From Pontimonas sp. (GTDB lineage: Bacteria > Actinomycetota > Actinomycetes > Actinomycetales > Microbacteriaceae), in the NCBI GenBank assembly GCA_017857245.1, contig JAFMDO010000011.1:1-35137 (forward strand): a stretch of 35,137 nucleotides of DNA, read 5' to 3'. Shown one piece after another: positions 4,280 to 27,880 of the stretch. Position 1 is the stretch's first letter. Every line of letters begins with the position of its first letter. The notes under the pieces were generated by a model. That model saw only the letters and a list, made by a program, of their open reading frames with translations, was not told the origin of the DNA and did no database searches. A program made the position numbers and the translations under genes.

Positions 4280-4292
4280 CTATAGGATGTAG
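4280..4292. promoter_or_regulatory. Regulon motif site 1 (hydrolase-lldD / RraA-fucose divergent promoter)
   Basis: CTATAGGATGTAG on the plus strand, reverse complement CTACATCCTATAG, an imperfect dyad. It lies in the 83-bp gap between the divergent starts at 4249 and 4333. It shares the ATCCTA core with five other sites in the window. Inferred to be an operator for the GntR/FCD regulator encoded at 7672. Confidence 0.62.
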
Positions 4293-4332
4293 TATCCCCC
4301 CGATTGTTCAGATGAGGCGAGGAGTCTTTGCA

Positions 4333-5007
4333 ATGTCCGGCCAGCTAGACACTCTCCCCTGGGGCGAGGACCCCCTAGATTCCTCGATCACGGTTTCCAT
4401 GCTTTCTGATTCCCTCGATAGGGCAGGGCTTCGAAGCCAAGTTCTTGCCTCCCGGCTCCAGCCTCTGGTTCCCTTGACACGAGCAACAGGGCGGGCAAGA
4501 ACCGCTCTCTTTGTGCCCGATGACACCATTGATCCTGAGCGCCCCTACGATGACGCCATCGACTTTATCGATGGATCTCAGCCGGGGGATTTCATCGTAG
4601 TCTCCACTTCTGAATCAAACGCGTCGGCTTTTTGGGGAGAACTCTTCAGCGCCGCCGCGCACGGAAGACACGCAGCCGGGATGCTCACGGATGGAAACGT
4701 CCGGGACTCGGACAAAATTATGGCATTGCGTTTCCCGGTATTCGCCGCCAGCAGGCGCCCCATAGATTTTCGCGGGCGGATGAAAATTGAATCTCAACAA
4801 ACCACGGTGCACATCGGCGGCGTAGCGATTGAGCCAGGCGACCTCATTGCGGCCGATGACGATGGAATTGTGGTAATTCCCCACGCCAGCGAGAGGGAAG
4901 TTATCGAATTTGCCCGGGAGAGAGCCCGCGCAGAATCGACCGTTCTCGCTGAGTTACTTGCCGGTGCGACGCTTCGCGACGTCTGGACCCGGCACGGGAT
5001 TTTGTAA
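4333..5007 (+). CDS. RraA-like protein, possible 2-oxoacid aldolase
   Basis: A 224-residue member of the RraA / HMG-CHA aldolase fold. The metal and substrate motif is visible as GNVRDSDKI (Arg and Asp typical of the aldolase branch), with the following ADDDGIVVIP strand also conserved. ATG 4333 is preferred over ATG 4312 because GAGGAG sits eight bases before it. It heads the rightward operon with mutarotase, fuconate dehydratase and fucose dehydrogenase. Known family activities include class II pyruvate aldolases acting on 4-hydroxy-2-oxo acids. Here it could cleave 2-keto-3-deoxyfuconate to pyruvate and lactaldehyde, but that is inference. An RNase E inhibitor role is less likely in this operon. 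Confidence 0.78.
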   Translation: MSGQLDTLPWGEDPLDSSITVSMLSDSLDRAGLRSQVLASRLQPLVPLTRATGRARTALFVPDDTIDPERPYDDAIDFIDGSQPGDFIVVSTSESNASAFWGELFSAAAHGRHAAGMLTDGNVRDSDKIMALRFPVFAASRRPIDFRGRMKIESQQTTVHIGGVAIEPGDLIAADDDGIVVIPHASEREVIEFARERARAESTVLAELLAGATLRDVWTRHGIL

Positions 5008-5026
5008 ATAGATTAAGGAGAAGAAA

Positions 5027-5359
5027 ATGGGATCTGTCCAAAGAATAGCTTCGGTCATCAACCTTGACCCAGAGGGTATCGAAGAGTACGAGCAGCTTCA
5101 CGCCGCAGTCTGGCCCGCTGTCTTGGCAAAAATATCTGAATGTAACATCCAGAACTATTCGATCTACCGCTATGGGGTTCTACTTTTCTCCTATTTTGAA
5201 TATGTTGGCGAGGATATGGATGGCGACATGGAGTTGATGGGGCAGGATCCCAACACTCAGGACTGGTGGGCAGTCTGCAAACCGCTCCAGCGTCCCGTTT
5301 CCGAAATACTCGAGGACGAGTGGTGGCACACTCTCCCCGAAGTGTTCCACCACGACTAG
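5027..5359 (+). CDS. L-fucose/L-rhamnose mutarotase family protein
   Basis: A 110-residue dimeric alpha-beta-barrel protein of the RhaM family, which interconverts anomers of 6-deoxyhexoses so the dehydrogenase receives the right form. The hallmark YEQLHAAVWPAVLAKI (conserved Tyr and His, then WP) is at residues 24-39, followed by NYSIYRYG and the tryptophan pair in TQDWWAV. Length is typical. AAGGAG lies just before the ATG. It sits 19 bp after the RraA-like gene and 25 bp before the fuconate dehydratase, so it is part of that operon. The operon context favours L-fucose over L-rhamnose as substrate. Confidence 0.86.
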   Translation: MGSVQRIASVINLDPEGIEEYEQLHAAVWPAVLAKISECNIQNYSIYRYGVLLFSYFEYVGEDMDGDMELMGQDPNTQDWWAVCKPLQRPVSEILEDEWWHTLPEVFHHD

Positions 5360-5384
5360 CAACTGAGCCCGAGAGCTGGACCCC

Positions 5385-6683
5385 ATGAGAAAAATAAATC
5401 ACTGGCACACCGAAGACATCCGGTTCCCCACCTCGAAAGAGCTGGACGGGTCTGACGCTATGAATCCAGACCCTGATTACTCCGCTGCCTATATATCTTT
5501 CGGCCACCATGGCGAAACCCTCTCGGCGGGCCACGCATCAGTTTTCACCATAGGCCGCGGTAACGATGTGCAGGTGGCAGCTCTTGAAGCGCTAAAGCCT
5601 TTTGTGGTGGGCCGAGATTTGGACGAGTTGCTGGCGGACATGGGCGCTCTCTATAAGGAGCTAACCGGTGATTCCCAACTGCGGTGGCTGGGCCCGGAAA
5701 AGGGGGTCATGCATATGGCCATTGGCGCTGTAATCAACGCCCTGTGGGACATCAAAGCCAGAGAAGAGAGCATGCCATTGTGGGAGCTACTGGCTAGTTT
5801 CTCCCCGGAGGAGCTGTGCAATCTGATCGACTTTAGGTACCTTTCTAGTGCTCTTACTCCAGAAGAGGCCCTCGACATCTTTGTGCGCGCCGAAGATGGC
5901 CGCCCCGAACGGATAGCTGCCTTGCGCGCTGAGGGGTATCCGGCCTATACAACAAGCCCCGGATGGCTCGGTTATGACGATGAAAAGCTTGAGAGATTGT
6001 GCAAGGAAGCTCAGGCGGACGGGTTTTCCCGCATCAAGTTGAAGGTTGGCGGGAACCTCCAGGATGACATTCGGCGGATGGGCATTGCGCGAGCTGCCTG
6101 CGGCGACGGGTACCCCATTGCTATTGATGCGAACCAACGCTGGGAAATCAGCGAGGCAATTGAGTGGATTAAGGCCCTGGCTCCTTTCGGAATTGACTGG
6201 ATAGAGGAACCCACCAGTCCCGACGATGTTGCTGGCCACCGGGAGATTGCTCGCGGGGTCGAGCCTGTTCGGGTATCCACCGGAGAGCACATGGCCAACC
6301 GTGTGGTGGCGCGTCAGCTGCTCGAGAGCCAAGCTGTCGGGCTGCTCCAAATCGACAGCGCGCGAGTCGCCGGCGTAAACGAAAACATCGCCATCCTTGC
6401 CCTCGCCGCCAAATTCGGGGTCCCGGTGTTTCCTCATGCCGGGGGAGTGGGTCTCTGTGAAGCAGTCCAGCATGTGGCGTTCTTCGATTATGTCGCCTTG
6501 ACCGGGATGAAAGAAGACCGCGCAATCGAGTATGTCCAGCATCTGCATGATCACTATGTTGATCCCGTGGTCGTGAAGGATGGGCGCTACTGGCCCTCAG
6601 ACGTGCCGGGCAATAGCCAGGAGATTCTCGAAGTCACGCGTCAGGATTATGCCTACCCTGATGGCATCATCTGGGGCAGCTAA
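5385..6683 (+). CDS. L-fuconate dehydratase (enolase superfamily)
   Basis: A 432-residue enolase-superfamily enzyme dehydrating L-fuconate to 2-keto-3-deoxy-L-fuconate. The N-terminal capping domain contains [18 protein letters not shown] and [19 protein letters not shown], both highly conserved in known fuconate dehydratases. The barrel carries KLK at 218-220, the Mg ligands Asp248 (IDAN), Glu274 (EEPTSPDD) and Glu301 (STGEH), Asp324, His351 ([11 protein letters not shown]) and Glu382. These positions coincide with my recollection of the numbering of the Xanthomonas enzyme, which also supports the ATG at 5385. Substrate assignment is stronger here than for most enolase-family proteins. It shares the operon with the mutarotase and the fucose dehydrogenase. 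Confidence 0.95.
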
Positions 6684-6685
6684 GG

Positions 6686-7678
6686 ATGACAATCCCTACT
6701 GTGGCGCTCGGCCAGGGTGGAATTGTCACGAGCTCACTGTCTTTTGGTGGCGCTGTCATCGGCAACCTCTTCACGGAGGTCAGCGATGAACAGGCCGAGG
6801 AAGCCCTGTCGGTTTCGTATGAAGCGGGGATCCGATATTTTGACACCGCGCCGCACTACGGGCTGGGACTCTCAGAACACCGTATGGGCAGGTTCCTCTC
6901 GGGACTCGACCGCTCGTCGGTCACGCTTTCCACCAAGATGGGCCGGCTTATCCGGCCCAATCCGAACTATGCAGGTGGCCAGGACACCCAAGGATTTGCG
7001 GTCTCGGGGAAGCTCCACCGCGAGGTCGACTATTCCTATGATGCGACGATGCGCTCCCTGGAGGAGTCGTTGGAGAGGCTCCAGACCGATTACGTGGATG
7101 TCGTGTTTGTCCACGACCCTGACGACCACGAGGCAGAGGCCCTGGAAGGGGCTTTCCCGGCTCTGGAAAAACTTCGCTCCGAAGGTGTGATTCGCTCCTA
7201 TGGGGCGGGGATGAACCAATCTGCGATGCTGACGCGGTTCATCCAGAGAACAGATCTAGACGTGGTGATGCTTGCCGGTCGGTTTTCACTCCTGGAGCAG
7301 CCTGCTCTCGAGGATCTTCTTCCCCTGGCCCAGAGCAAGGGGATTTCCGTCGTGGCGGCGGGAGTATTTAACTCCGGGATCCTGGCGCGGGAGTACCCTC
7401 CCGATGGCTCGCACTACAACTACGACATCGCTCCGGCGGACATTCTTGCCAAGGCCCGTGAGCTTGCTCGCGTATGCGTGGAGCACGGCTATTCGCTGCC
7501 GCAAGTTGCCGCTCAGTTCCCCTTGACTCACCCTGCTGTTTCGGTGGTGTGCCTCGGAGCAAGAAATGGCGACCAGGCGCTCAGAAACGCAGCCTTATTT
7601 GATGAGCTAATCCCCGAGCAGTTCTACCGCGACCTGTTGGAGCAAGGCCTGCTCAGCGAGGGCTCGCTTCGTTACTGA
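6686..7678 (+). CDS. Aldo/keto reductase, L-fucose dehydrogenase type
   Basis: A 330-residue aldo/keto reductase of the D-threo-aldose / L-fucose 1-dehydrogenase group, oxidising L-fucose to the lactone with NAD(P). The catalytic tetrad is visible: Asp and Tyr in RYFDTAPHYGLGLSE, Lys in LSTKMGRL and His in VFVHDPDDHE. The N-terminal GGIVTSSLSFGGAVIGNLF is characteristic of this branch. The ATG is only 2 bp after the dehydratase stop and has no well-spaced ribosome binding site, so translation is probably coupled. It is the last gene of the operon. Its stop overlaps the convergent stop of the GntR regulator. It performs the first oxidation of the pathway. Confidence 0.9.
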   Translation: MTIPTVALGQGGIVTSSLSFGGAVIGNLFTEVSDEQAEEALSVSYEAGIRYFDTAPHYGLGLSEHRMGRFLSGLDRSSVTLSTKMGRLIRPNPNYAGGQDTQGFAVSGKLHREVDYSYDATMRSLEESLERLQTDYVDVVFVHDPDDHEAEALEGAFPALEKLRSEGVIRSYGAGMNQSAMLTRFIQRTDLDVVMLAGRFSLLEQPALEDLLPLAQSKGISVVAAGVFNSGILAREYPPDGSHYNYDIAPADILAKARELARVCVEHGYSLPQVAAQFPLTHPAVSVVCLGARNGDQALRNAALFDELIPEQFYRDLLEQGLLSEGSLRY

Positions 7679-8439
7679 TTTTCTTCCATCATCGACATGG
7701 TGGGGCCAAAGCGTTCCAAAGAACTGTTGATGTGCGCGAGCATTAATGTTGAAGCCTTATCTTGGTCTCCTGCGGAAATTGCGTCGGCAATGGCTTGATG
7801 CTCAGTGAAGGCCAGGAATCCCGATTTTGGTTCGTAATAGAGCTCGAAGAGTTCGCGGATGACGGCGGCATCTTTTCGGTCTTCGCGCAATCTGGTTTTG
7901 AGAACCGTGTACAGCCTGAAGAGGTGTAAGTGGCAGTGCGTTCGTATGTATGCTTCGCGAACAAAGTCACTCCCGGAAAGCTCGGCCACCAGCGCGTGAA
8001 ATCTGGCGTCATGCTCACTCATCGCCTTGTACGAGTCTTCCGTGTTGAGGTGTTGAGCGTCCTTTCCCGCAGTGAGTTCCGCAGCCAGGCGCTCCCTGCC
8101 GTCCTCTGTGATTCCTCGCGCCGCGGTCATAGCGGCCCAAGGCTCGATGATTCCGCGAAACTGAAAAAGATCTTTGAGCTCTGAGGCGCTGAGCAAAGCG
8201 GTCGCCTGATATCCGCGAAGGGGTTCCTTAATGACTAGGTCATCGGACTCCAACCTCGCCAATGCTTCTCTCACCGGCGTTTGGGAGACATCTAACTCCC
8301 GGGCGAGGGCGTCAATGTTGATTCTCTCGCCGGGAGCTATTTCATGCGTGAGCAACATTTCGCGAACGCGGTTGTAGGTTTCGTCCGACAAGACGGTTCG
8401 GAGGGGTCGAGAGATTCGGGCTTTGGGCGCTTCTGCCAT
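7672..8439 (-). CDS. GntR-family regulator with FCD domain (FadR type)
   Basis: A 255-residue transcription factor. An N-terminal winged helix (VRREMLL-like start, then INIDALARELDVSQTPVREA and the wing) spans about residues 15-80. The C-terminal all-helical FCD ligand domain has the metal-binding set: Asp and His in EHDARFHALVAELSGSD, His in THCHLHLFRLY and His in FTEHQAIADAI. FCD regulators usually bind sugar acids or other small acids. It is the second gene after the keto-deoxyfuconate dehydrogenase, so it is probably controlled by the motif at 9332, giving autoregulation. It is the only FadR-type regulator in the island and the natural candidate to read the six 13-bp sites. ATG 8439 is chosen. 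GTG 8442, with AGGAG eight bases upstream, is an alternative. Confidence 0.9.
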   Translation of the reverse strand: MAEAPKARISRPLRTVLSDETYNRVREMLLTHEIAPGERINIDALARELDVSQTPVREALARLESDDLVIKEPLRGYQATALLSASELKDLFQFRGIIEPWAAMTAARGITEDGRERLAAELTAGKDAQHLNTEDSYKAMSEHDARFHALVAELSGSDFVREAYIRTHCHLHLFRLYTVLKTRLREDRKDAAVIRELFELYYEPKSGFLAFTEHQAIADAISAGDQDKASTLMLAHINSSLERFGPTMSMMEENQ

Positions 8440-8519
8440 CACTCGTTTGTCTCCTGCTCTCAACTGTTGAAAGAAAGTCTAGCTCTCGAGGGCGGTGCTA
8501 CCGGGATTGGGCCAGGAAC

Positions 8520-9275
8520 CTAAATCCGTGCCCGTGTTCTCAGCCCATCCATGCCGCCATCAACGGCGAGAGAAGTTCCGGTGGTCGATGCCTGCCGGGG
8601 ATTAGCTAAAAAACAGACTGCGGCGGCTACTTCGTCTGCGGAGACGAGGCGACCAATCGGCTGGCGGGCATTGAGCGCTTTGCGCTCCGCCTCTGGGTCA
8701 TCTGCTTGCGCGAGAAGGCGAGCAACCCAGGGAGTGTCTGCGGTACCCGGATTGACACAGTTAACGCGGATGTTGTCGGGGATGGCGTCCGCAGCCATTG
8801 CCCGGGTAAGAGAAAGCACTGCCCCTTTGCTTGCGCTATACACCGCCCGATCGGGAAGCCCGACCGTTGCCGCGATGGAGCAAATGTTCACGATGCTGGC
8901 GCTGGCACTTTTGCGCAGCAGCCGCATGGCGCGCGAGGAGATGCGGGCGGTGCCCACGACGTTGGTGTCATAGACCCGAGCCCACTCTTCATCGGTAGCC
9001 GTCTCGATAGACCCGATGGCCCCTATTCCCGCGCAGTTGACCACAATGTCGAGCGAAGGGGTGAGGGCTTCGATCGCCATGAATGCCTCTTCGATGGCGG
9101 GCTTGGAGGTGACATCGCAGGGGAACCACTCCATGTCGCTTGAGAGCTCACCACGGCTGATGTCCAAACCAACGACGGTGACGCCGTATCCACGGAGCAT
9201 ATTCGCGGTGGCCAAACCGATTCCCGAAGCGCTGCCGGTAACAACGGCGTTGAGGCCTGCCAATTCTTGGTTCAT
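8520..9275 (-). CDS. SDR, 2-keto-3-deoxy-L-fuconate dehydrogenase
   Basis: A 251-residue classical short-chain dehydrogenase. The NAD-binding TGSASGIG is at residues 13-20, NCAG follows beta-4, catalytic Tyr and Lys are in YSASKGA, and the C-terminus has NPGTADTPWVARLL with ARQPIGRLVSADEVA and TGTSLAVDGGM. The TADTPWV...RQPxGRLV combination is typical of the 2-keto-3-deoxy-L-fuconate 4-dehydrogenase group, which makes 2,4-diketo-3-deoxy-L-fuconate. ATG 9275 is preferred over the in-frame TTG at 9287 because GAAGG lies six bases upstream. It precedes the GntR gene in a leftward operon and shares a divergent promoter region with the gene starting at 9397. Confidence 0.9.
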   Translation of the reverse strand: MNQELAGLNAVVTGSASGIGLATANMLRGYGVTVVGLDISRGELSSDMEWFPCDVTSKPAIEEAFMAIEALTPSLDIVVNCAGIGAIGSIETATDEEWARVYDTNVVGTARISSRAMRLLRKSASASIVNICSIAATVGLPDRAVYSASKGAVLSLTRAMAADAIPDNIRVNCVNPGTADTPWVARLLAQADDPEAERKALNARQPIGRLVSADEVAAAVCFLANPRQASTTGTSLAVDGGMDGLRTRARI

Positions 9276-9331
9276 GGGAACCTTCAATCCTTATATTTTG
9301 CGCGGACACAAATGCACTCCAAGCAGATTTA

Positions 9332-9344
9332 CAATAGGATACAT
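9332..9344. promoter_or_regulatory. Regulon motif site 2 (SDR-GntR / CoA-transferase operon divergent promoter)
   Basis: CAATAGGATACAT on the plus strand, reverse complement ATGTATCCTATTG. It lies in the 121-bp gap between divergent starts at 9275 and 9397. The core and the ATACA flank equal those of site 3. Binding here would couple the regulator's own operon to the rest of the regulon. Function inferred. Confidence 0.62.
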
Positions 9345-9396: not shown

Positions 9397-10536
9397 ATGG
9401 CTGAGATGACGGTACTCAAGGGAATGACCTGGGATCACCCGCGGGGGTTTGATTCCGTGGTCGCATGCAACGCACTCCTCGAGGAACGTTTCGGGGTTAC
9501 CGTCGATTGGACGGCAAGAAGTTTGCTCGAGTTCGGTGACCAGCATGTGCGCGAGTTCGCCCCGGGCCACGACCTGATGGTTATCGACCATCCTCATGTG
9601 CCTGACGGCGTAGCGGATGGGGCCCTCTTGGCAATGGATGACCTACTGAGCCACGAACAGCTCGAAAAATTGGCAAGGGAGAGCGCCGGGCCTTCCCATG
9701 AGTCATATCGTTTTCTCGGAAAGATTTGGGCATTGGCCATCGACGCGGCCACCCAAGTGTCTGTGTATCGTCCCGACCTCAGCGACGGGGTCCCTCCCTT
9801 TTGGGACGACGTGATGACTGATGCGAGGAAAGGCAAGGTGTTGTGGCCGCATAAGCCCGTGGATGCCTTCAGTACTTTTGCGACGTTGAGCGCGCAATGG
9901 GGATCGCCCCTAGGTAGCAGCGAAAACTTTCTGGATGAGGACGTCACTCAGGAGGTGATGGAGTTTCTTCTCAGTTTTGCCGCCCTGGTTCCCGAGGAAT
10001 GTCAGCGATCCAATCCGTTTGAGATTTCCGAAATGTTGGTGAGCTCCGATGACTATGCCTACGCGACGCCGCTCTACGGCTACACGAATTATTCGCGCCA
10101 AGGCTTTCGCTCTCGGGTACTGGCCTACGACGACGTGCCCAGTTTTGACGGGCTTGCTTCCGGGGCACAGTTGGGCGGGGCCGGGATAGCAGTATCTGCG
10201 CATTCTGCTCAGCCCGAAAAGGCGGCCTTGGTTGCCGCCTACTTGTCTTCCGCTGAGGCGCAAAACGGCCCATATACCGAGATGCATGGTCAGCCCGGAA
10301 ATGTGCGAGCGTGGCTATCGCCGGCGATGAATTCGCTTACCCACGGTTTTTTTCGCAACACGCTGCGCACCATTGAGCGGTCCTGGGTCAGGCCCAGGGT
10401 CGTGGGGTGGCCCGATTTTCAGTTTGCGGTGTCCCAGGTGATTCATCAAGCATTAGTTAATAAGGTCTTCAACGCTTCAGACTGGAGCGAGATGGTTGCT
10501 CAGGTTGAGCATCTTCGGGAAAGGGCAGAGCAGTGA
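9397..10536 (+). CDS. Solute-binding-like protein without export signal
   Basis: A 379-residue protein with the look of a type 2 periplasmic-binding fold (family 1 solute-binding proteins), for example [17 protein letters not shown] at the start, [11 protein letters not shown], and a late [24 protein letters not shown] segment typical of sugar-binding proteins. It has no signal peptide or lipobox, so it should stay in the cytoplasm. Similar leaderless relatives are often found beside CaiB CoA-transferase and MaoC genes. ATG 9397 is preferred over TTG 9370 because ACGGGG lies six bases upstream. It is the first gene of a six-gene operon. Possible roles are a cytoplasmic ligand sensor, a substrate-delivery subunit or an enzyme. 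None can be chosen from sequence. Confidence 0.78.
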
Positions 10537-10982
10537 TGTATTTCGACGACTACGAGGTCGGCTCCTTGGTAAAGAGCCATGGGCGCACCATGACTGAGGC
10601 CGACATCGTCTTACATGCTGGGCAGACAGGCGATTTCTATCCCCATCACATGGATGCGGAGTTCTGTGCCACGCAGCCTTTTGGGCAACGTATTGCTCAC
10701 GGCACGCTAATTCTTTCCGTTGCCGTAGGAATGTTGGCTTCGGGAGATATCAATGAAGCCGCTATGACCTATGGGTATGAAGCTATTCGGTTCATCCGAC
10801 CCGTGTTTATCGGAGACACCATCACCGCTCACGCGAGCATTGCCGAGAAGCGGGAGTATCGCAAAAATCCGGAAAACTACGGGCTTGTCGACGAAAAAGT
10901 AGAAGTACTCAATCAGCACGGTGAGATTGTGATGGCGCTGACACACATTTATCTTGTCTCCAAAAACCCGCACCAAGGCTAA
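10536..10982 (+). CDS. MaoC-like hotdog hydratase (first copy)
   Basis: A 148-residue single-hotdog protein of the MaoC / (R)-specific enoyl-CoA hydratase family. The catalytic Asp-x4-His pair is intact in [14 protein letters not shown], and RIAHGTL and [14 protein letters not shown] follow in family order. The ATG overlaps the stop of the upstream gene (TGATG), with AAAGGG upstream. GTG 10533 is the alternative start. The protein probably hydrates or dehydrates an acyl-CoA in the cytoplasm. Its partner CaiB-type CoA-transferase two genes downstream could supply the thioester. The acyl group is unknown. Confidence 0.85.
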
Positions 10983-10995
10983 GAGAGGAAAACCC

Positions 10996-15496: not shown

Positions 15497-15544
15497 CTGC
15501 ATTCACCTAATTTTCTCTAAATGAAACAATAAAATAACGATACC

Positions 15545-15557: not shown

Positions 15558-15592
15558 GAAACGACACTTTGTGTTATAGAGTCGTGTGAAAC

Positions 15593-16957: not shown

Positions 16958-16984
16958 TCGACTAAGAGCTGCAAATTAGGTGAA

Positions 16985-17025: not shown

Positions 17026-17048
17026 CACCTGACTGAGAAAGAGGAAAT

Positions 17049-19733: not shown

Positions 19734-19829
19734 GACTACCTCCGGGCCACAGTTGCGGATACTTTCAAGCACCCATCACTGACGTTGACTTCACAACCGG
19801 ATGCCAACTGGAGGCGGGTCAAGAAAATC

Positions 19830-19842
19830 GTGTAGGATATAT
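19830..19842. promoter_or_regulatory. Regulon motif site 4 (TSUP exporter / sulfatase divergent promoter)
   Basis: GTGTAGGATATAT on the plus strand, reverse complement ATATATCCTACAC. It lies in the 176-bp gap between divergent starts at 19733 and 19910. The core ATCCTA is intact and the flanks are slightly divergent. It places sulfatase and exporter in the fucose regulon, if the motif is an operator. Confidence 0.58.
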
Positions 19843-19909
19843 TTTACCGCACAGACAGTGATCTAATCAACCTAAGGTGGGCGCACCTTGATTTGACAGG
19901 GGGAATCGT

Positions 19910-21301
19910 ATGAGTGGGCAGCCAAACATATTGTTCATTTTGGCGGACGACCTTGGCTATGGAGACCTATCCGCGGTAAATGGTGGCTTGAGCGACACCC
20001 CCGTTCTCGATAATTTCCTTAGTCAGAGCGTATCCCTGACGCAGCAGTATTCCTCCTCACCAGTATGTAATCCCTCGCGGGCCTCGTTGATGACGGGGCG
20101 GTACCCGCATCGGACAGGGTCGATAGACACGCTCGAGTGGCGAGGGCTCGAACGTCTTGCCCTTGATGAGACAACGCTCGCTGATTTGCTTTCGAGAGGG
20201 GGCTATCGGACTGCGCACATAGGAAAGTGGCACTTAGGCGCGTTCGATAACCGTTACGCGCCACTTAGTCGCGGTTTTGATGAATCTGTCTGCTTCCGCG
20301 GCGGTGGGCACGATTATTTTGATTGGAGAATTGAGTACGACAATATTCCCCAGCATTCAGATGGTCGATATCTGACCGACGTTTGGACTGATGAGGCGAT
20401 TGGTTTCCTTGGTCGGGTGCCCAAAGACCAGCCGTTCTTCCTCAACTTGTGTTACAACGCTCCTCACGTGCCGCTCCAGGTTCCTGAGGAGGAAGCAGAT
20501 ATTTTCCGGGCCAAGGGTCTTTTTTCTGAAGATGTGTGCAAACTGTACGGCATGATTCGACGGATGGACTCTGGGATCGGTCGCGTTTTGGAGGCGCTTA
20601 AGGCCAATGGCCAGTATGAAAACACCATTGTGATTTTTACATCAGACAATGGCCCCGAATTTATGTCAGATTATCTCCCCACTCCGACCCATACAGAACG
20701 CTTTAACTCTGGACTGCGAGGTTCAAAAGGTTGCGTTTATGAGGGTGGGGTGAAAGTTCCGTTGCTCATGCGTTGGCCAGGGGAGCTTTCGGCTGGAACA
20801 GAAGTCAATCAGATGACACATTTCACCGACTGGTTGCCGACGTTGCTCGCGGCGGCCAACATTTCATTGCCGTCGGATCTCGCAATTGACGGCGTCAATT
20901 TACTTCCCCTTCTTAGGGGAGAAAGCCACTCATTGCCCGATACCCGTTATTGGCAATGGAACCGCTACTCCCCTGTTGCCGAGTGCAACGCGGCCGTTCG
21001 TGAGGGGGATTGGAAACTGGTTTTCCCCGCTATACCGGAGGCTATGAGGGTCTTTGACCTCGAATGGCTTGCAGTGAGCATGTACCAGCCCGAGTATTTC
21101 ATCGAGAGAGGAATCATTGATGATGCCGAGCCTTTTCGGGTGCTAAGCACCCCTGGTCAAGTCGAGCTTTACGACCTTAGCGAGGACCCGGCAGAATCGC
21201 ATGACCTTGCCGAGAGGAACCCAGAGAAGGTCCGGCACCTCAGCCTGAAGTTAGAGAACTGGTTTCTCGAGGTGGAGGCTGACCGCCAGCGAAACCGCTA
21301 A
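19910..21301 (+). CDS. Type I (S1) sulfatase, no signal peptide
   Basis: A 463-residue formylglycine-dependent sulfatase. Calcium-site Asp13 and Asp14 lie in LADDLGYGD, and Cys53 of the PVCNPSRASLMTGRYP signature is the residue converted to formylglycine. Lys106 and His108 are in GKWHLG, His186 is in NAPHVPL, and Asp246-Asn247 are in TSDNGPE, completing the active site. It starts directly with the first barrel strand, so there is no export signal and it should be cytoplasmic. GGGGGA precedes the ATG. Context (fucose pathway, importer, its own maturase) suggests it removes sulfate from an imported sulfated fucoside. The linkage position cannot be predicted here. Confidence 0.93.
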   Translation: MSGQPNILFILADDLGYGDLSAVNGGLSDTPVLDNFLSQSVSLTQQYSSSPVCNPSRASLMTGRYPHRTGSIDTLEWRGLERLALDETTLADLLSRGGYRTAHIGKWHLGAFDNRYAPLSRGFDESVCFRGGGHDYFDWRIEYDNIPQHSDGRYLTDVWTDEAIGFLGRVPKDQPFFLNLCYNAPHVPLQVPEEEADIFRAKGLFSEDVCKLYGMIRRMDSGIGRVLEALKANGQYENTIVIFTSDNGPEFMSDYLPTPTHTERFNSGLRGSKGCVYEGGVKVPLLMRWPGELSAGTEVNQMTHFTDWLPTLLAAANISLPSDLAIDGVNLLPLLRGESHSLPDTRYWQWNRYSPVAECNAAVREGDWKLVFPAIPEAMRVFDLEWLAVSMYQPEYFIERGIIDDAEPFRVLSTPGQVELYDLSEDPAESHDLAERNPEKVRHLSLKLENWFLEVEADRQRNR

Positions 21302-21657
21302 AGCTTTCCTTCGGTGTGGCTTCTCGATCGTGAGGCGCATTTTCAGGGGCCGTCGGCTGGAACTGAACTGTCTGCTTCATAATGCCTGGCGCACACGGGC
21401 GCTGTGTTGGGGGTCCTGATCGGCGGCTCTGACGGGTTGCATGAAATTAGCGCCTAAAATAGTAAGGGGCAAGGGAACGGCTGAATCCTGGGAGTAATCC
21501 CAACGGGTGGAATCCGCAGAATGATGAAAGGTCCCGCGCCGGTGCCGACAGCGATGTGGCTAGCGTCGTCCGGGGAAAGAGGAGATATGCAGTGGTAGCT
21601 GCCCTTGATGCAGATTTCCTAGCTAAACGCGGACCTGCTTTAACAAAGGTCGCGTGA
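21302..21657. other. 356-bp gap between sulfatase and FGE genes
   Basis: No convincing gene or RNA was found. The most open frame is 64 codons on the plus strand (21466-21657), ending in a TGA that abuts the FGE GTG. It has no ATG and no recognisable protein similarity. No copy of the 13-bp regulon motif is present. A promoter for the FGE gene may lie here, but I could not assign one. Confidence 0.4.
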
Positions 21658-22683
21658 GTGCTGATGCCTCCTCAAGATAACTGCGCCGATGGGTGCGGGT
21701 GTGGCGCACCTACCCGGTCGGAATTCTCGAAAGCAAACGCCGGAGAGACTCGCGTGGTTCAGGTGTCAGCTGCTGGGAACCACCGCATCAAGCAGTCACA
21801 GATTCCGCCCGGCACAATGATGATGGGCGACTCCTCGGGAGACGAAAATCTTGGCGACGGCGAGACACCCGTTCACGAGGTCTCACTGGACTCCTTTGAG
21901 ATTGACGCTACGACCGTTACGAATGATGACTTCGCACGGTTCGTCTCCGACACAGGGTACGAAACAGAAGCCGAAGCGTGGGGATTTTCTGCGGTATTCC
22001 ACTCTGTCGCTCGCGCAACGGAGGAGGAAATTATTGGTCCAGCTGCTGGAACGCCCTGGTGGCTCGCTGTCCGTGGATCGAGCTGGGCGCATCCGGAGGG
22101 ACGGGATAGCACGCTCGCTGGGCGCGGTGATCACCCAGTGGTGCACGTGAGTTGGACCGACGCGAAAGGCTATTGTGCTTGGGCCGGCCGGCGTCTTCCG
22201 ACAGAAGCTGAATGGGAGTTTGCCGCGCGTGGGGGGTTGGAAGGCTCCAAGTATCCCTGGGGGGAAGCAGAGGTTGACGCTGGCGGTTGGCGTGCCAATA
22301 TTTTTCAAGGAAATTTCCCGCGAACCAACACCGGAGAGGACGGCTGGCTCACAACCGCGCCAGTTCGCGCCTTTCAACCAAACGGATTCGGCCTCTGGCA
22401 GCCGATAGGAAATGTTTGGGAGTGGTGTGAAGATTGGTTCGACAATTCGTATTACGCGTTTTCTCCTCGTAACGACCCCCGCGGCCCTATCGGGGGGACG
22501 ATGAAAGTGATGCGCGGTGGGAGCTATCTTTGCCATCCCTCGTACTGCAATCGCTACCGAAACTCGGGCCGCTCGGCCAACACCCCGGAATCGTCAATGG
22601 GTAACGCGGGGTTTCGAACAGTAGGGCTATCAGGGAACGGAGGGCTCGTCGCGAGGCCGGTTGAGGGGAGTTCGTTATCCTAG
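21658..22683 (+). CDS. Formylglycine-generating enzyme (sulfatase maturase)
   Basis: A 341-residue copper-dependent FGE that converts the sulfatase CxPSR cysteine to formylglycine. Landmarks are GTMMMGDSSGDENLGDGETP near residue 52, VVHVSWTDAKGYCAWAGRRLPTEAEWE, GNVWEWCEDWF, and the C-terminal RGGSYLCHPSYCNRYRNSGR followed by NTPESSMGNAGFR. Both copper-binding cysteines (292 and 297) are present, which separates true maturases from other members of the fold. The N-terminus is Cys-rich (DNCADGCGCG) and there is no signal peptide. GTG 21658 has AAAGG at good spacing. ATG 21664 is the alternative. It follows the sulfatase, its evident target. Confidence 0.93.
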   Translation: MLMPPQDNCADGCGCGAPTRSEFSKANAGETRVVQVSAAGNHRIKQSQIPPGTMMMGDSSGDENLGDGETPVHEVSLDSFEIDATTVTNDDFARFVSDTGYETEAEAWGFSAVFHSVARATEEEIIGPAAGTPWWLAVRGSSWAHPEGRDSTLAGRGDHPVVHVSWTDAKGYCAWAGRRLPTEAEWEFAARGGLEGSKYPWGEAEVDAGGWRANIFQGNFPRTNTGEDGWLTTAPVRAFQPNGFGLWQPIGNVWEWCEDWFDNSYYAFSPRNDPRGPIGGTMKVMRGGSYLCHPSYCNRYRNSGRSANTPESSMGNAGFRTVGLSGNGGLVARPVEGSSLS

Positions 22684-22721: not shown

Positions 22722-24644
22722 TTATTGGCGAGAGGAAATGAGGGGACTCCAGTCGGCGCGGGCCGACCATGGAGTGTCGTAACGCGGTGTCCGTGAATAG
22801 CGATCCATCGTCAGGCGAAGAGAAACGGTCACATTGCCAGGGATCGATATTTCTAGCCACGGTGTGGGTTCCGCGAGCGGCGCAGAGTCCTCGGCATTGT
22901 CACCCACTCCCGTGATGAGGTGCTCACCGAAAGCACCTGCTTGAATAATAATGGTGACCTCTTCGTCCCCCGTGTTAGCGAGCTGAACATCGGCATCGGT
23001 GGCACTGATGCGAGTAACCAGGGCGGCGACCGAGTCGGGCAGGCCGGGACGCTGGGTTGCACTGTTGTAGTAACGAAAGGTGGCGTGTTGGAAGCCGCCG
23101 TGCGAGATGTGCATGGGCGCGCCCCATTGCAACTGCACCAGCGACTCGAAGTAGACCGGGCAAAATTCCTGCCATGCATGGATTGCATAGCCATCGACTT
23201 GCATGCTGAGCGAGTCTGGGTAGCCGTTAATTTGCTCGACCGTGTCCCAGGTCAGTGGGTCGCCATCCCCAGAGCGCATTCGCGCAAGTTGCTGGTCAAT
23301 GAGCCTGTTGTTTGCAGCAAGGATTTCTAGGGGATAGTTCGGCAAGTTTCCTGTGATGTATTCGTACCACGCTGTTGTATTGGTGTTGTAGTGCTTGGCG
23401 CTAAAAGGTTTTTCCGCGATAGAGACGTGGGACCAATCGAATCCGCCGCGGGATCTCTCAACTCGATCTTGGTCTTCTTTAGCGAGGCTTTTCGTCCACA
23501 AATGAATGGAGTGGAAGGGCGTGATCGGGCGGAAATCCGTCCAGCCGGCGTCGAAGTGCTTGTGGGGGGTGAAGCGCATGCCGTCTCTGTCTTCGCCCAG
23601 CGCATAGTTCGCATCTATTTGCTCCCGGGCGAGTGCCAAGAACGAGGAATCTCCCGTCAGCAGGTAGGCATTGCTGCAAGCATTTATTGTTGGCTCGATA
23701 ATGGTCAAGAATCCGTGGGGCCAGCGCCACCCATAGTGGCCGCCCCACCATTTGCCATCAAGGTATTCGCCCACTTTTCCTGAGAGCCCGACGTTGTCGG
23801 GCAGTATTCCGCCATTCTCGATGGCTCGCGTGCGCCACCGAAGCAGGTAGTCGGTGACCCAGTCCTTCAGGCTTTCGTCCCCCGAGTACATGTATGCATG
23901 AGCCATCTGGCCGGTGGCATTCATGTTCAGAGGGACATCTCCCCGGGTCGTTCGCTCGTTCATCAAGCGAACTACTTCGTCAAACACCGCGTCGTCAGAC
24001 CAGTTGCAGGTGCCCAACGCAAAAGGGGAGGTTTTCATGTCTTCAAAAGGGGCTAGATAGTCATCGAGCACTCCACGGTGAGTACCTAAGTCCTCCTTGG
24101 TTACCTGGAGACGCGGGCCGCGGGAGCCACTCTGTGGCGCCCGAATGATTCCCGTTTCTGTGTCGTAGTTGGGCGCCTCGGGGTCTTCGCCCGTGTACAT
24201 CCGAGCAAAGCGATCAGCACGCGTTCGGTCTTGTAAAGATTCCGGTTTGGTCAAGCCAAAAAAGTAGTGGAATAGGTTAGCTTCGCCGTGGTGCATCCAG
24301 TCGTAGTAGCCGTCGAACTCTCGATGAATCTGCCCATATTGAGTCCATTGCCACGTAATGGACTCCCACATCTTCCGGGCTAATTCATAGACCGACTCGT
24401 CTCCCGTTAGCGCATAAAACAATGCCAGGTACTGGAAAGCTTCGTAGGGATCGTCCGACCCGTCCATACCGGGCCAGCTCTCGCGCCAGGTCAGGGTGCC
24501 ATCAGGGCCCGTGTAGCGGGCGACAAATTCATGAGCTCCTGCACTGAGGCGCTGCTTGAGGCTGACCTGCTCGAGTGCCCATTGCGGCACGACTGGCTCC
24601 GAGTGCGTGAGTGTGTAGCGAGAGAGTGCAGCGTCACCAGACAT
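22722..24644 (-). CDS. Large helical-toroid protein of unknown function, possible glycan-active enzyme
   Basis: A 640-residue protein I cannot place in a named family. The first 450 residues or so are mainly helical, with repeated aromatic-rich hairpins (YEAFQYLALFYALTGDESVY, GQMAHAYMYSGDESLKDWV, ACSNAYLLTGDSSFLALARE), the spacing expected of an (alpha/alpha) barrel. Conserved-looking acidic and aromatic clusters are EFDGYYDWMHHGEANLFHYF, GGHYGWRWPHGFL and DAGWTDFRPITPFHS. The last 130 residues or so look like a beta-sandwich. There is no signal peptide. ATG 24644 with GGGGA upstream is preferred over TTG 24692, and motif site 5 lies 23 bp before it. The fold and context suggest a cytoplasmic glycoside hydrolase or lyase acting on the imported sugar, but no catalytic residues can be named. 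Confidence 0.75.
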   Translation of the reverse strand: MSGDAALSRYTLTHSEPVVPQWALEQVSLKQRLSAGAHEFVARYTGPDGTLTWRESWPGMDGSDDPYEAFQYLALFYALTGDESVYELARKMWESITWQWTQYGQIHREFDGYYDWMHHGEANLFHYFFGLTKPESLQDRTRADRFARMYTGEDPEAPNYDTETGIIRAPQSGSRGPRLQVTKEDLGTHRGVLDDYLAPFEDMKTSPFALGTCNWSDDAVFDEVVRLMNERTTRGDVPLNMNATGQMAHAYMYSGDESLKDWVTDYLLRWRTRAIENGGILPDNVGLSGKVGEYLDGKWWGGHYGWRWPHGFLTIIEPTINACSNAYLLTGDSSFLALAREQIDANYALGEDRDGMRFTPHKHFDAGWTDFRPITPFHSIHLWTKSLAKEDQDRVERSRGGFDWSHVSIAEKPFSAKHYNTNTTAWYEYITGNLPNYPLEILAANNRLIDQQLARMRSGDGDPLTWDTVEQINGYPDSLSMQVDGYAIHAWQEFCPVYFESLVQLQWGAPMHISHGGFQHATFRYYNSATQRPGLPDSVAALVTRISATDADVQLANTGDEEVTIIIQAGAFGEHLITGVGDNAEDSAPLAEPTPWLEISIPGNVTVSLRLTMDRYSRTPRYDTPWSARADWSPLISSRQ

Positions 24645-24666: not shown

Positions 24667-24679
24667 AAAAATCCTATAG
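24667..24679. promoter_or_regulatory. Regulon motif site 5 (toroid protein / SDR divergent promoter)
   Basis: AAAAATCCTATAG on the plus strand, in the 66-bp gap between divergent starts at 24644 and 24711. The right half matches sites 1, 3 and 6, while the left half is A-rich. Position this close to both starts suits repression. Function inferred. Confidence 0.6.
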
Positions 24680-24710
24680 CATCTAGGGACAATGATGGAC
24701 AGGGGTATTC

Positions 24711-25469
24711 ATGCGAGCAGCACTCGTTACAGGGTCAACTTCAGGACTGGGGTTCTCTACGGCTCGAAAACTTTTCGAGGCAGGCTTTGCTGTGTCCCTC
24801 CATGGGAAAAGCGCCTGGGAGCAGTTGCCCGCAGAGTTCCAAGCCTGGGTGAATTCGAGCCCGTTGCTCGAGTACCTATCGGCTGATCTCTCGGACAGTG
24901 CTGCTCCCGATGCACTCGTCCAGGGTGCTGCGGCGCACTGGGGGCAGCTCGATTGCCTGGTATCTAACGCCGCAATAACGCTGCATGCAGAGTCCTCCGA
25001 GGTCCTTCCCGCGCAATGGGAGAGGGTCTTTCACGTTAATGTCCAGGCGCCCTTCTTTCTCGCCCAGGCAGCGCTGCCTCACCTAGCGCTTCGATCGGGC
25101 TCGATTGTCTTTGTGAGCTCCACTAACGCCCACCGAGTGAACAAGAAGAATCTCGCTTATGACGCATCCAAGGCTGCGCTTAACCACATGGCCAAAGGTG
25201 TTGCATTGGAAGCGCGCAGTCAAGCGGTGAGAGTCAACGTGGTGATGCCAGGGGGAATTGACACGCCTATGCTTCAGCGCTGGCTTGTCGACTATGCCGG
25301 CTCCGAGGATGCCGCTCAGGCAGCCCTGGCTCAGGCCAAGGAGGATGGTGTGGTGGGAGCGGCCGATGACATCGCTGATTCGATAGTTTTTCTGGCTTCT
25401 GATTCGGCTAGATGGGTGACCGGAGCGTCGCTCATCGTGGACGGTGGCGCTTATCTCGAAGAGGGCTAG
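24711..25469 (+). CDS. Short-chain dehydrogenase/reductase (second SDR)
   Basis: A 252-residue classical SDR. The cofactor motif TGSTSGLG is at residues 8-15, VSNAA stands for the usual NNAG, catalytic Ser is in VFVSSTNAH, Tyr and Lys are in AYDASKAALNHM, and the C-terminus is WVTGASLIVDGGAYL. AGGGG precedes the ATG. The VSNAA variant and the overall divergence set it apart from the keto-deoxyfuconate dehydrogenase at 8520. It is a single-gene unit opposite the toroid protein, and its stop overlaps the convergent MFS gene. Probably it oxidises a sugar or sugar acid. The substrate is unknown. Confidence 0.86.
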   Translation: MRAALVTGSTSGLGFSTARKLFEAGFAVSLHGKSAWEQLPAEFQAWVNSSPLLEYLSADLSDSAAPDALVQGAAAHWGQLDCLVSNAAITLHAESSEVLPAQWERVFHVNVQAPFFLAQAALPHLALRSGSIVFVSSTNAHRVNKKNLAYDASKAALNHMAKGVALEARSQAVRVNVVMPGGIDTPMLQRWLVDYAGSEDAAQAALAQAKEDGVVGAADDIADSIVFLASDSARWVTGASLIVDGGAYLEEG

Positions 25470-26731
25470 TCCTTGTCTTCCACGCTGAAGACGGGGAGGG
25501 GGCCGGTGGGGGGATTCACAAGCTCAAGATCCCTCGCTTGCGTCTTTTCCGAGGTGCGATGGGCGATAGCGGCCCCGAAGAAAATGAGAGCAACCGGGAG
25601 GACAAAGGCCCACGAAACCCCATAACCCTCGGCGACAGCTCCCATCGCAATTTTCGCGCCGATGGAAACACTCTGAGTGACAAAGACCAAGGTGCCCACC
25701 GCCTGAGCGGTCGTGAGTCCCGGCACTGTGCTGCTGGTCGAAATCATTGTGGGGCCTAGGGGGGCGAGCCCTAGCCCTGCAAACAACCACAAGGCCGCGA
25801 GCCAGATGATGGCGAGCTCAGCGGAGTAGGCACCTAAGAGGTGCGCCCCCCAAAGGCCAGCGGCCATGGCCGAGCCTGAGATCATCGCTCCGGCAACCGA
25901 AATACTGTGCACGTCAAAACGCCGGGTGAGGCGAGAAATGGCGAGTCTCCCTACGATCATGCCCATCATGAAAGTCGCAAAGGGCAGCGCTCGGAGCACG
26001 AGGTCCACGCCGCTCGCTCTCGCGAGGGTTGCCGACCATTCGAGCACGGCAATCTCGGGCATGACGGAGCACAGTAGACCAAAAGACAACAGCCACAAAC
26101 GAGGAGGGAACCGGTAAAAGGGGATTCGAGTGCCGCTTAACCGCTCCTCGCGGTGCCCGTCCTCAGCGGGCGAGAGCAAGAATCGCGATGTCACAAAAAC
26201 TCCGACCGCCGTCACCACTGCCACGAGAATCAAGTAGGCCTGGAGCGAAATAAAGACGGAGGCGATAGCGCCGGTTGCGGCGGCCATTACAGCGCCGATG
26301 CTCCAGCCTGCATGCATTCCGCTCATGATGGATTCCGGTACTTTTCGCTGGAGCATCACGGCGTGGGTGTTGACGGCCATGCCGGTAAGCGACGCAGTGA
26401 AGTTGAAGACGGTGTTGATTGCCGTCCAGGTCACTACCGAGTCTGTGAAACCCAGCGGTATGAGAAATCCTGCAGACAATATGGCGCCCACCCGCACGAC
26501 GGGCATAGCTCCCGCTCGACTGATGACCGAGGGCGCTAGAACAACGGCAGTAATTGCGCCCAGAGGGGCGAAACTGAGGATAAAGCCCCATGTGGCAAAC
26601 GACACACCGAGCCGATCGATATATTCGGGAACCCACGCGACCGAACACAACACGACTTGGCCCATGAGCAAGAAACTCATGAACCCTGCGCGTCGCGCGG
26701 TCGCAAAGCGACGAGGGGAGACGCTTGTCAC
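25466..26731 (-). CDS. Major facilitator superfamily transporter
   Basis: A membrane protein of about 421 residues with 12 predicted helices, starting GFMSFLLMGQVVLCSVAWV. A charged loop in the middle (LLSPAEDGHREERLSG) separates the two six-helix halves. The segment VMLQRKVPESIMSGMHAGWSIG resembles YbjJ-like MFS carriers. The frame is open to a TTG at 26782 inside the dehydratase gene, but the GTG at 26731, 12 bp after that gene's stop, is the likelier start. It is the second gene after the enolase-family dehydratase, so it may import the sugar or sugar acid that enzyme uses, or export a product. Confidence 0.85.
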   Translation of the reverse strand: MTSVSPRRFATARRAGFMSFLLMGQVVLCSVAWVPEYIDRLGVSFATWGFILSFAPLGAITAVVLAPSVISRAGAMPVVRVGAILSAGFLIPLGFTDSVVTWTAINTVFNFTASLTGMAVNTHAVMLQRKVPESIMSGMHAGWSIGAVMAAATGAIASVFISLQAYLILVAVVTAVGVFVTSRFLLSPAEDGHREERLSGTRIPFYRFPPRLWLLSFGLLCSVMPEIAVLEWSATLARASGVDLVLRALPFATFMMGMIVGRLAISRLTRRFDVHSISVAGAMISGSAMAAGLWGAHLLGAYSAELAIIWLAALWLFAGLGLAPLGPTMISTSSTVPGLTTAQAVGTLVFVTQSVSIGAKIAMGAVAEGYGVSWAFVLPVALIFFGAAIAHRTSEKTQARDLELVNPPTGPLPVFSVEDKD

Positions 26732-26742
26732 TATTTTCGGTG

Positions 26743-27864
26743 CTACAGCGTCACGACAGTGTGGTCGTCGATGAAGTCCCAATCGTAGTCAATTCCCAGC
26801 CCCGGTCCCGTGGGGGCCTGAACCATGCCATCTTTAATCACGACCGAGGTGTTTGTCCCGAAAGTGAAGTCTTCAAAGGGGTAGAGCATTTCGAAGAATT
26901 CGCAGTTGGACAGAGCCAAGGCGGCATGAACCTGCACCTGCTCGAGAGCTTGATAGATGGTGGTGTGAAGCTCGCACTGAACACCAAACGACTCTGCGGT
27001 GTGAGCCGTTTTCATCACCGAAGTGATTCCCCCTCGCCACGAAACGTCGGTTCGCACGATGTCTGCAATTCCTTCGTGAATATAGTGCGCCGTGGAATAG
27101 TGCCCACCCGCGAGGACCTCGGTGCCGCAGATGGGGATGTCAAGTTTTTCTCTCAGTTTGCGCAATCCGTTAAAATTGACGTCGAGGAGAGGCTCTTCGA
27201 GCCAGCGGAATCCAAGCTTCTCCAGTTCGCGCCCCACAACGAGAGCTTGTTCATAGTTGTAGCTAATGACGGGATCGGCCATAAGGGTGAAATCATCACC
27301 GACCGCTGCGCGAACCGCGCGGTAGCACTCAATGTCCACTGTGGGGTCACCGGGGGGGTGCAGTTTGTAACCGCGGATACCTCGGGCCTGCACCTCTAAC
27401 GCTTGAGCGACATATTCATCTGGCCCCGGCAGAAACATTGAGCTCACATAGAGAGGCACCTCGGTGCGCGCGGCGCCAAGGAGCCGGTATACCGGCTCGT
27501 CAGCGGACTTTCCCACGATGTCCCAGCAAGCATTATCGAACGGTCCGTAAGCATAGATTGGAGTCAGATTCCATTTTCGATCGAACATCTCGAAGTCTTT
27601 GAGGTTCTGTTGGGTGTGAAAAGGATCCCGCCCCATGAAGAAAGGCTTGACCTGGCTGAGAGCGTGAGCAGCTGCCACAGCGTCCAATGCCCCGAACCCG
27701 AAGGATGTGCCTGTCGTGCCGTCAGCGGTGGTCAGGGTTACCACTGTGAAGTCCGGCCGGGAACCGCCCGGAAGCTGAACAGCAGAGACCGAGTCGAGGG
27801 GAGCTAATTCATCGGCCCCCCGGCACCCTCGAACTTCTACGTTAACGATTTGTTTGGGATCCAC
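26743..27864 (-). CDS. Enolase-superfamily sugar-acid dehydratase (mandelate racemase-like)
   Basis: A 373-residue enolase-superfamily protein distinct from the fuconate dehydratase. The barrel shows GYKLHPPGDP (a KxH in place of KxK at the second strand), Asp in LMADPVIS, Glu in RWLEEPLLD, Glu in CGTEVL, and ELHTT for the C-terminal His. YAYGPFDNACWDIVGKSA links the capping domain and barrel. These are the metal ligands and general bases of an acid-sugar dehydratase, but the substrate is not apparent. The GTG at 27864 is preceded by AGGA about eight bases away, which itself falls inside motif site 6. It is co-transcribed with the MFS carrier. Confidence 0.85.
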   Translation of the reverse strand: MDPKQIVNVEVRGCRGADELAPLDSVSAVQLPGGSRPDFTVVTLTTADGTTGTSFGFGALDAVAAAHALSQVKPFFMGRDPFHTQQNLKDFEMFDRKWNLTPIYAYGPFDNACWDIVGKSADEPVYRLLGAARTEVPLYVSSMFLPGPDEYVAQALEVQARGIRGYKLHPPGDPTVDIECYRAVRAAVGDDFTLMADPVISYNYEQALVVGRELEKLGFRWLEEPLLDVNFNGLRKLREKLDIPICGTEVLAGGHYSTAHYIHEGIADIVRTDVSWRGGITSVMKTAHTAESFGVQCELHTTIYQALEQVQVHAALALSNCEFFEMLYPFEDFTFGTNTSVVIKDGMVQAPTGPGLGIDYDWDFIDDHTVVTL

Positions 27865-27867
27865 CTA

Positions 27868-27880
27868 ATAAATCCTATAG
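27868..27880. promoter_or_regulatory. Regulon motif site 6 (enolase-MFS / scoAB divergent promoter)
   Basis: ATAAATCCTATAG on the plus strand; with the next bases it makes the perfect palindrome TCCTATAGGA (27873-27882). It starts 4 bp before the dehydratase GTG and lies 122 bp upstream of the scoA ATG. It extends the shared motif to the far side of the island. Function inferred. Confidence 0.6.

Follow-up and report, generated by a model that had tools for sequence, protein, structure and literature searches.

The 35,137-nucleotide stretch of DNA analysed here (the window; Pontimonas sp., GenBank assembly GCA_017857245.1, contig JAFMDO010000011.1) contains, between positions 401 and 29373, six divergent intergenic gaps flanked by 28 genes of the gene table, and each gap holds a single copy of a short element. 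The element is a 12-bp palindrome, ATCCTATAGGAT, centred on CTATAG, and is the predicted operator of an FCD-type GntR regulator encoded in the same island. An earlier note on this DNA had read a 13-mer in each gap; all six were found in place, and each consists of the stronger half of the palindrome together with its flank. ATCCTA, described there as invariant, is the sole hexamer common to all six gaps. The regulator and the six sites are as follows, with scores from the matrix described below.

7672 to 8463, minus strand: FCD-type GntR regulator, proposed owner of the operator (Pfam GntR and FCD)
4277 to 4288: predicted operator 1, AACCTATAGGAT, between the abhydrolase/LldD/GlcD unit (minus) and the RraA-like unit (plus); score 18.8
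9329 to 9340: predicted operator 2, one strong half, TTACAATAGGAT, between SDR-GntR (minus) and the SBP_1 unit (plus); score 11.1, lowest of the six
15549 to 15560: predicted operator 3, ATCCTATACGAA, between the FAA hydrolase (minus) and the ABC importer (plus); score 18.8
19827 to 19838: predicted operator 4, ATCGTGTAGGAT, between the TauE-like exporter (minus) and the sulfatase and formylglycine-generating enzyme (plus); score 17.0
24671 to 24682: predicted operator 5, ATCCTATAGCAT, between the toroid protein (minus) and SDR_2 (plus); score 20.0
27872 to 27883: predicted operator 6, ATCCTATAGGAA, between MR_MLE_2/MFS (minus) and the CoA-transferase (plus); score 24.1, best in the window

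The perfect half of the palindrome is directed towards the plus-strand gene at sites 1, 2 and 4 and towards the minus-strand gene at sites 3, 5 and 6; site 2 has one good half only, with three mismatches to ATCCTATAGGAT. The sites lie 7 to about 118 bases from the likeliest starts. Full palindromes (TTTCCTATAGGATCTAC, ATCCTATAGGA and ATCCTATAGGAT itself) are found beside FCD-type GntR genes of related genera. The FadR-type dyad GTAT-CCT-ATAC that had been suggested at site 3 was in the wrong register: a GTAT-N3-ATAC dyad fits site 3 alone, and was rejected because the relatives carry CTATAG-centred palindromes, which are unlike the TKGT/ACMA boxes of the FadR subfamily (PMC4494728).

The number of ATCCTA copies in the window is ordinary (8 against 7.7 expected), so that the non-randomness lies in their placement and not in enrichment. 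Six of the eight fall inside the six divergent gaps, which together make up 670 of the 35,137 bases when the gap ends are taken as the start codons judged most likely, and the remaining two (22677 and 31293) are outside divergent gaps. None of 2000 mononucleotide shuffles of the six gaps gave any common hexamer. In the 1.28-Mb genome, ATCCTATAG occurs three times, always within this 35-kb contig, and palindromes with at most one mismatch also number three, every one in the window; with at most two mismatches there are 12 (five in the window), compared with four for the backwards control. The degenerate 13-mer SWRTAGGATDYWK matches the genome seven times, at the six sites and at C22:15623, within a reading frame that is RmuC-like (named from its translation), and its backwards control has no match. 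This pattern was derived from the six sites themselves, and a matrix built without the window's genus is therefore a fairer test.

The matrix comprises 18 positions and 74 sites (36 upstream of named GntR genes and 38 from the scan of relatives), none from the window's genus to judge by record titles and kinship labels; the training sites were chosen by their likeness to ATCCTATAGGAT, and the all-palindrome count given below serves as a check free of that choice. Its six best hits in the window are exactly the six sites (24.1, 20.0, 18.8, 18.8, 17.0 and 11.1), all intergenic in a window where intergenic positions make up 6%. The seventh-best score, 6.9, is coding, the best score in 271 kb of other contigs of the same genome is 10.0, and none of 500 symmetric column-permuted decoy matrices attained the observed top-six sum. 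The equally good coding hits against which the earlier note had cautioned were found neither in the window nor in these 271 kb, which together were the scope of the matrix scan; the whole genome was scanned by consensus with at most two mismatches, a search that would miss weak sites such as site 2.

A syntenic island, without the sulfatase, formylglycine-generating enzyme and TauE-like exporter genes, is present on a 19.9-kb contig of another genome of the genus (G013); the MFS gene was not seen on that contig, and the MR_MLE_2 protein of the window is 88% identical to the G013 copy. In all five comparable gaps the site is identical at 12 of 12 positions, the remainder of the alignments being 50–76% identical: 54% for operator 1 (G013:C7 at 1088), 76% for operator 3, 56% for operator 5 and 50% for operator 6, with operators 2 and 3 each inside a longer conserved block. 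Site 2, though weakest, is thus kept, and the expectation that homologous clusters would carry the motif was borne out. The three palindromes of G013 with at most one mismatch are all on the island contig. The gap of operator 4 is absent from G013, and because among the genus genomes the sulfatase gap was seen in the window genome only, the membership of operator 4 rests on its score of 17.0. The exporter, sulfatase and formylglycine-generating enzyme genes (18954–22683) are missing from an island that is otherwise largely syntenic, and so look like an insertion or a loss, yet their gap in the window has a good operator.

Sites with at most one mismatch occur in five of the 19 genomes of the genus (G000, G013, G004, G008 and G007). 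In G004 and G008, ATCCTATAGGAT precedes the matched start of an FAA hydrolase homologue (47–48% identical) by about 52 bp, and G007 (53% complete) has two copies of a toroid-SDR_2-MFS-MR_MLE_2 module, each with the letters of operator 5. The two copies (L157, G007:C43; L158, G007:C73) have diverged from each other, with the operator in both. A close GntR is present in G000, G013 and G006, while the relative in G004, G005 and G008 carries His and Pro at positions 35 and 45; the other 13 genomes gave no match better than 8e-15 (most of their helices being unread), and 12 of these are without a site, the exception being G007. G005 and G006 have a GntR and no site.

The protein encoded at 7672–8463 has both the GntR winged helix and the FCD domain by which the FadR subfamily is recognised, and a short palindromic operator common to several promoters, a further mark of that subfamily, is present here; the consensus is TCCT/AGGA and not the TKGT/ACMA box. 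The helix, IDALARELDVSQTPVRE, is without the FadR residues Arg35 and Arg45 and has Asp and Gln instead. The metal site of FCD domains consists of an Asp and three His residues; D152, H156, H222 and H244, invariant in 11 sequences, presumably hold the metal in this protein.

A scan of 149 relatives with WTCCTATAGGAW revealed 42 sites in 31 genomes, compared with four for the backwards control. Of the 41 sites outside the window's own genome, 33 have a GntR relative at no more than 5 kb (tblastn), and in 32 of these cases a nearby GntR has Asp or Glu at the FadR-35 position. The residue class so defined has Asp/Glu at the FadR Arg35 position and mostly Pro/Gln at the Arg45 position, the classes being read from the helix, as there is an alignment gap at position 35, and the match of Asp to Arg35 being made by ungapped back-counting from the recognition helix. 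The half-site TATAGGAT occurs within 1.4 kb on either side of 4 of 15 Asp35/non-Arg45 GntR genes and of 0 of 57 others (p 0.001). Within 5 kb on either side, it accompanies 10 of 12 Asp-type and 3 of 60 other genes (p 3e-8), in a comparison confined to loci of that length. Most of its long Asp-type loci had been fetched for carrying a site, it excludes Arg-type loci of about 3.4 kb, and its 60 other frames include at least one spurious one (in L088). The three misfits all share a locus with an Asp-type GntR. Three Asp-type loci outside this comparison (L018, L021 and L026; helix DDDAL, Lys45) have no half-site within 1.4 kb; with all three taken as misses, the proportion becomes 10 of 15.

When all 4096 12-bp palindromes were counted upstream of 78 GntR genes outside the genus (from 79 loci, one being too short and dropped), ATCCTATAGGAT ranked first, with at most one mismatch upstream of 21 of the 78, against a mean over palindromes of 0.13. 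Eighty named GntR genes, searched over the last 300 bp before the match and its first 60 bp, yielded a site in 21 cases at one mismatch and 36 at two, where nine decoys gave 0 and 0–4; none of 45 Arg45-type genes had a site at up to two mismatches. Position 35 in the 80 named relatives is D in 69, E in 10 and T in one, and position 45 is P in 41, Q in 38 and T in one, the P and Q being partly built into the search pattern that retrieved them. The sole other match to the 7672 protein in its own genome at E ≤ 0.001 (C31) has Arg45. Since the palindrome elsewhere adjoins GntR genes of one residue class, the regulator of the six sites is very probably the FCD-GntR at 7672–8463, the candidate already put forward in the earlier note; the conservation and the matrix agree with this assignment.

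In a minority of the class the sites are ATCGTATACGAT-like and fit GT/AC. A simple rule by which Asp35 means C was considered and found insufficient, as PID-type proteins with Asp have such ATCGTATACGAT-like sites. A variant palindrome, ATCCGATCGGAT, lies 84–120 bases upstream of the matched GntR start in three class members (L214, L229 and L239) titled Rhizobiales bacterium, Rhizobium sp. and Agrobacterium salinitolerans. In five genera (L077–L081, from G020, G019, G085, G090 and G074, respectively), an Asp-type GntR lies between two near-perfect palindromes separated by about 8–9 kb. Only an SDR and the GntR of L077 and L078 were matched when compared with the window proteins, and the class therefore probably regulates other pathways too. 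Taken together, the comparisons lean towards a hitherto undescribed class of specificity among the FCD-GntR proteins. It would be common in Actinomycetota, have members with variant sites in the Alpha- and Betaproteobacteria and members with the helix (no site found) in the Chloroflexi, and have lost both DNA-reading arginines of FadR; its actinobacterial core would read ATCCTATAGGAT, with C replacing the family's conserved G.

The other genes of the island are the following.

401 to 4270, minus strand: alpha/beta hydrolase, flavin mononucleotide (FMN)-dependent L-lactate dehydrogenase-like enzyme and flavin adenine dinucleotide (FAD) oxidase unit (Pfam; NCBIfam below cut-offs)
4312 to 7678, plus strand: RraA-like aldolase, mutarotase, L-fuconate dehydratase and aldo-keto reductase unit (Pfam)
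8520 to 9287, minus strand: SDR oxidoreductase (SDR_1) in the GntR unit, likely a 2-keto-3-deoxy-L-fuconate dehydrogenase (Pfam; exact substrate presumed)
9397 to 14639, plus strand: solute-binding-like protein, MaoC, fuconolactonase-like protein, coenzyme A (CoA)-transferase III, MaoC and Gfo/Idh/MocA unit (Pfam)
14636 to 15502, minus strand: FAA hydrolase, L-2,4-diketo-3-deoxyrhamnonate hydrolase-like (8GSR, 242 bits; NCBIfam, 315 bits, cut-off 500)
15650 to 18889, plus strand: ABC importer, with a binding protein and two permease-like proteins (Pfam; first permease below gathering score)
18954 to 19772, minus strand: TauE/SafE-type exporter (Pfam)
19910 to 22683, plus strand: sulfatase and formylglycine-generating enzyme (Pfam)
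22722 to 24644, minus strand: helical-toroid protein (no Pfam or NCBIfam match; low-confidence structural model)
24711 to 25469, plus strand: second SDR oxidoreductase (SDR_2) (Pfam)
25466 to 27864, minus strand: second enolase-superfamily enzyme (MR_MLE_2) and MFS transporter unit (Pfam)
28002 to 29373, plus strand: two-subunit CoA-transferase (Pfam)

Over 430 residues the protein encoded at 5385–6683 aligns with the L-fuconate dehydratase 2HNE (599 bits). Two enzymes expected of an oxidative L-fucose pathway, this dehydratase and a 2,4-diketo-3-deoxy acid hydrolase, are represented in the island by their matches to 2HNE and 8GSR. The fuconolactonase-like protein scores 134.6 bits with the NCBIfam model for L-fucono-1,5-lactonase, below the cut-off of 400, and 73 bits with 4DLF, and the 8GSR match of the FAA hydrolase does not tell a preference for L-rhamnonate from one for L-fuconate. 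The mutarotase, fuconolactonase-like amidohydrolase, SDRs, L-lactate dehydrogenase-like enzyme and ABC importer would suit an oxidative L-fucose route, for which the substrates of several enzymes are presumptive, and the two CoA modules are less easily accounted for by fucose. Homologues of the fuconate dehydratase, SDR_1, GntR and MR_MLE_2 stand in a row in seven of eight named loci (L161–L168, whose titles include lake and groundwater actinobacteria), L167 being without SDR_1 and having another gene order, and a site lies between GntR and MR_MLE_2 in four of the eight; SDR_1 adjoins GntR in the lake and groundwater actinobacteria also.

The toroid protein (640 amino acids) is modelled as a helical toroid with a beta-sandwich (mean pLDDT 68). 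It was not taken to be a known enzyme: the best PDB matches are GH146/GH127 arabinofuranosidases (E 2.5e-4 and 8.9e-4), with TM scores of only about 0.2–0.3. It is found in three of the 19 genus genomes (in two copies in G007) and in the fucose loci L161 and L167. Beyond the island, the block at 29617–35089 encodes an acetolactate-decarboxylase-like protein, a thiamine pyrophosphate enzyme, a Gfo/Idh/MocA protein, a Cgl0159-like protein and a UTRA-type GntR, and has no operator; it looks like a separate module, possibly for inositol.

The comparisons show that the six sites are versions of one conserved motif, associated with this GntR class. The reading proposed here, to which we assign a probability of about 0.88, is that the six sites are operators through which the FCD-GntR at 7672–8463 controls an L-fucose oxidation island from its divergent gaps. 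A GntR dimer would bind the palindrome in each gap, and one site per gap would serve both divergent units, tying the 28 genes between 401 and 29373 to one regulator. The protein is most likely a repressor of both units in each pair, which may be released by an acid of the pathway, for example L-fuconate or 2-keto-3-deoxy-L-fuconate; the invariant Asp and His residues of its FCD domain would bind a metal. The purpose of the island would be the oxidation of L-fucose, perhaps from sulfated algal sugars, in the order of import, desulfation, lactone hydrolysis, L-fuconate dehydration and oxidation of the keto-deoxy acid, with a final hydrolysis to pyruvate and L-lactate followed by lactate oxidation.

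Several observations weigh against this assignment. Site 2, which could allow the GntR unit to regulate itself, is the weakest, its score of 11.1 being close to the background maximum of 10.0, and control through gap 2, beside the GntR gene's own unit, is consequently less certain by matrix score than through any other gap. The earlier reading that these gaps would control nearly all genes from 401 to 29373 is supported as regards the presence of the motif in every gap, and least securely for gap 2. The conserved blocks of gaps 2 and 3 in G013 are much longer than the site. G006 (74% complete) has a 72%-identical GntR and no site with at most one mismatch, while G007 has its two sites and no close GntR match. 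Among the sites of the relatives, 8 of 41 have no GntR relative within 5 kb, two of these having one at 6 and 14 kb (the 14-kb case being G013's own cluster). Forty-four of the 80 named GntR genes with this helix have no upstream site at up to two mismatches, and 47 of the 80 loci have no site with at most one mismatch anywhere in the locus. As a control, the 8-mer TAGGATAT was counted too; it overlaps the motif and is also commoner near Asp-type GntR genes (4 of 12 against 1 of 60, within 5 kb on either side), and Asp at the Arg35 position is insufficient for a C-type site, as the PID-type proteins show.

One alternative is that TAGGAT, which fits the loose actinobacterial −10 pattern (TANNNT), is simply the −10 box of one promoter per gap, with no dedicated regulator. 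At site 6 it ends 7 bases before a GTG start, as in a leaderless transcript, and the perfect half faces one gene of each pair; a housekeeping −10 box, however, should recur throughout the genome, and the confinement of all three palindromes with at most one mismatch to the window makes this explanation highly unlikely (the bare hexamer was counted within the window only). Matrix scores of no more than 10 in the 271 kb elsewhere speak against it as well, and it leaves the palindromy and the linkage to one GntR class unexplained. None of the six sites lies within a sigma-70-like pair; one minus-strand pair ends 3 bases from operator 4. The scan yields no more pairs than shuffles, however, and so has little power. 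It is a different matter if the GntR operator overlaps the −10 box in one or both promoters of a divergent pair: TAGGAT fits the loose pattern and stands 7 bases from the GTG at site 6, so that operator and −10 box may coincide. The distances to the likely starts (7 to about 118 bases), the asymmetric half-sites and the TATAG that CTATAG gives on either strand are consistent with such an overlap; the widely varying spacing to the starts speaks against it, as does, in the same low-power scan, the lack of a −35 partner 16–18 bases upstream, and the overlap is a tentative possibility, somewhat less likely than not.

Binding by the window's other GntR (UTRA type, 30493–31254), encoded on the same contig, or by a regulator from outside the window is improbable, as the palindrome goes with a single residue class of GntR genes; at the position of Arg45 the UTRA protein still has Arg (SRPTIRR, by eye), and there is no site at the divergent start of its gene. 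That the sites are six look-alikes chosen by eye from AT-rich gaps would accord with the ordinary hexamer count and with a 13-mer pattern derived from the sites, but the shuffles gave no common hexamer, and the conservation in G013 together with the matrix from other genera renders chance scarcely credible. The reading of the sites as operators of the FCD-GntR is retained, on firmer evidence than the earlier note could offer.

The analysis provides a testable regulator, operator and gene list for an L-fucose island in small-genome marine actinobacteria, places a conserved toroid protein in a fucose regulon and suggests a link between residues and operator for a large group of uncharacterised FCD-GntR proteins. 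If the specificity class is real, operators could be predicted for many uncharacterised sugar-acid regulons, and the loss of both arginines would break the suggestion that an arginine-guanine contact of the recognition helix is a conserved GntR feature.

No open full-text paper describing the operator together with a GntR was found by title, subscription papers and RegPrecise being outside the search. The literature text on FucR that was available (PMC5507952 and PMC8579813) holds no motif matching the island operator, and that of PMC5507952 gives neither the family of FucR nor its motif. The oxidative L-fucose loci of microbial-mat bacteria with FucR are similar to the island in having a fuconate dehydratase, COG0179 and COG1028 proteins and a predicted local regulator with its sites; their hosts are Halomonas, Algoriphagus and a Rhodobacteraceae bin, and no sulfatase unit is mentioned in that portion of the text (PMC5507952). 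The non-phosphorylating L-fucose/L-rhamnose pathway of SAR202 likewise has the same sugar-acid oxidation enzyme families in marine bacteria with sulfatases in the genome, but SAR202 belongs to the Chloroflexota, unlike the window genome, and the term GntR does not occur in the main text (PMC10444878). The closest parallels are the FadR-subfamily regulons (DgoR, LldR, UxuR and GntR), which, as described by Suvorova et al. (2015; PMC4494728), share the GntR helix and FCD-type C-terminal domain, the short palindrome, the presence of one site per divergent gap, as a rule for the control of both units, and the link to sugar-acid and lactate metabolism. The consensus given there is TKGT-N2/3-ACMA, and members with other motifs are listed; Asp at helix-turn-helix position 28 (FadR Arg35) is described as rare, as preferring a G/C pair and as possibly reading C (PMC4494728). 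The island operator, TCCT-AT-AGGA, differs from these in having C in place of the conserved G, which agrees with that view of Asp, and the window protein differs from FadR in having Asp and Gln for the two G-reading arginines. The regulon is of a well-known kind, and its unusual part is the operator-residue class.

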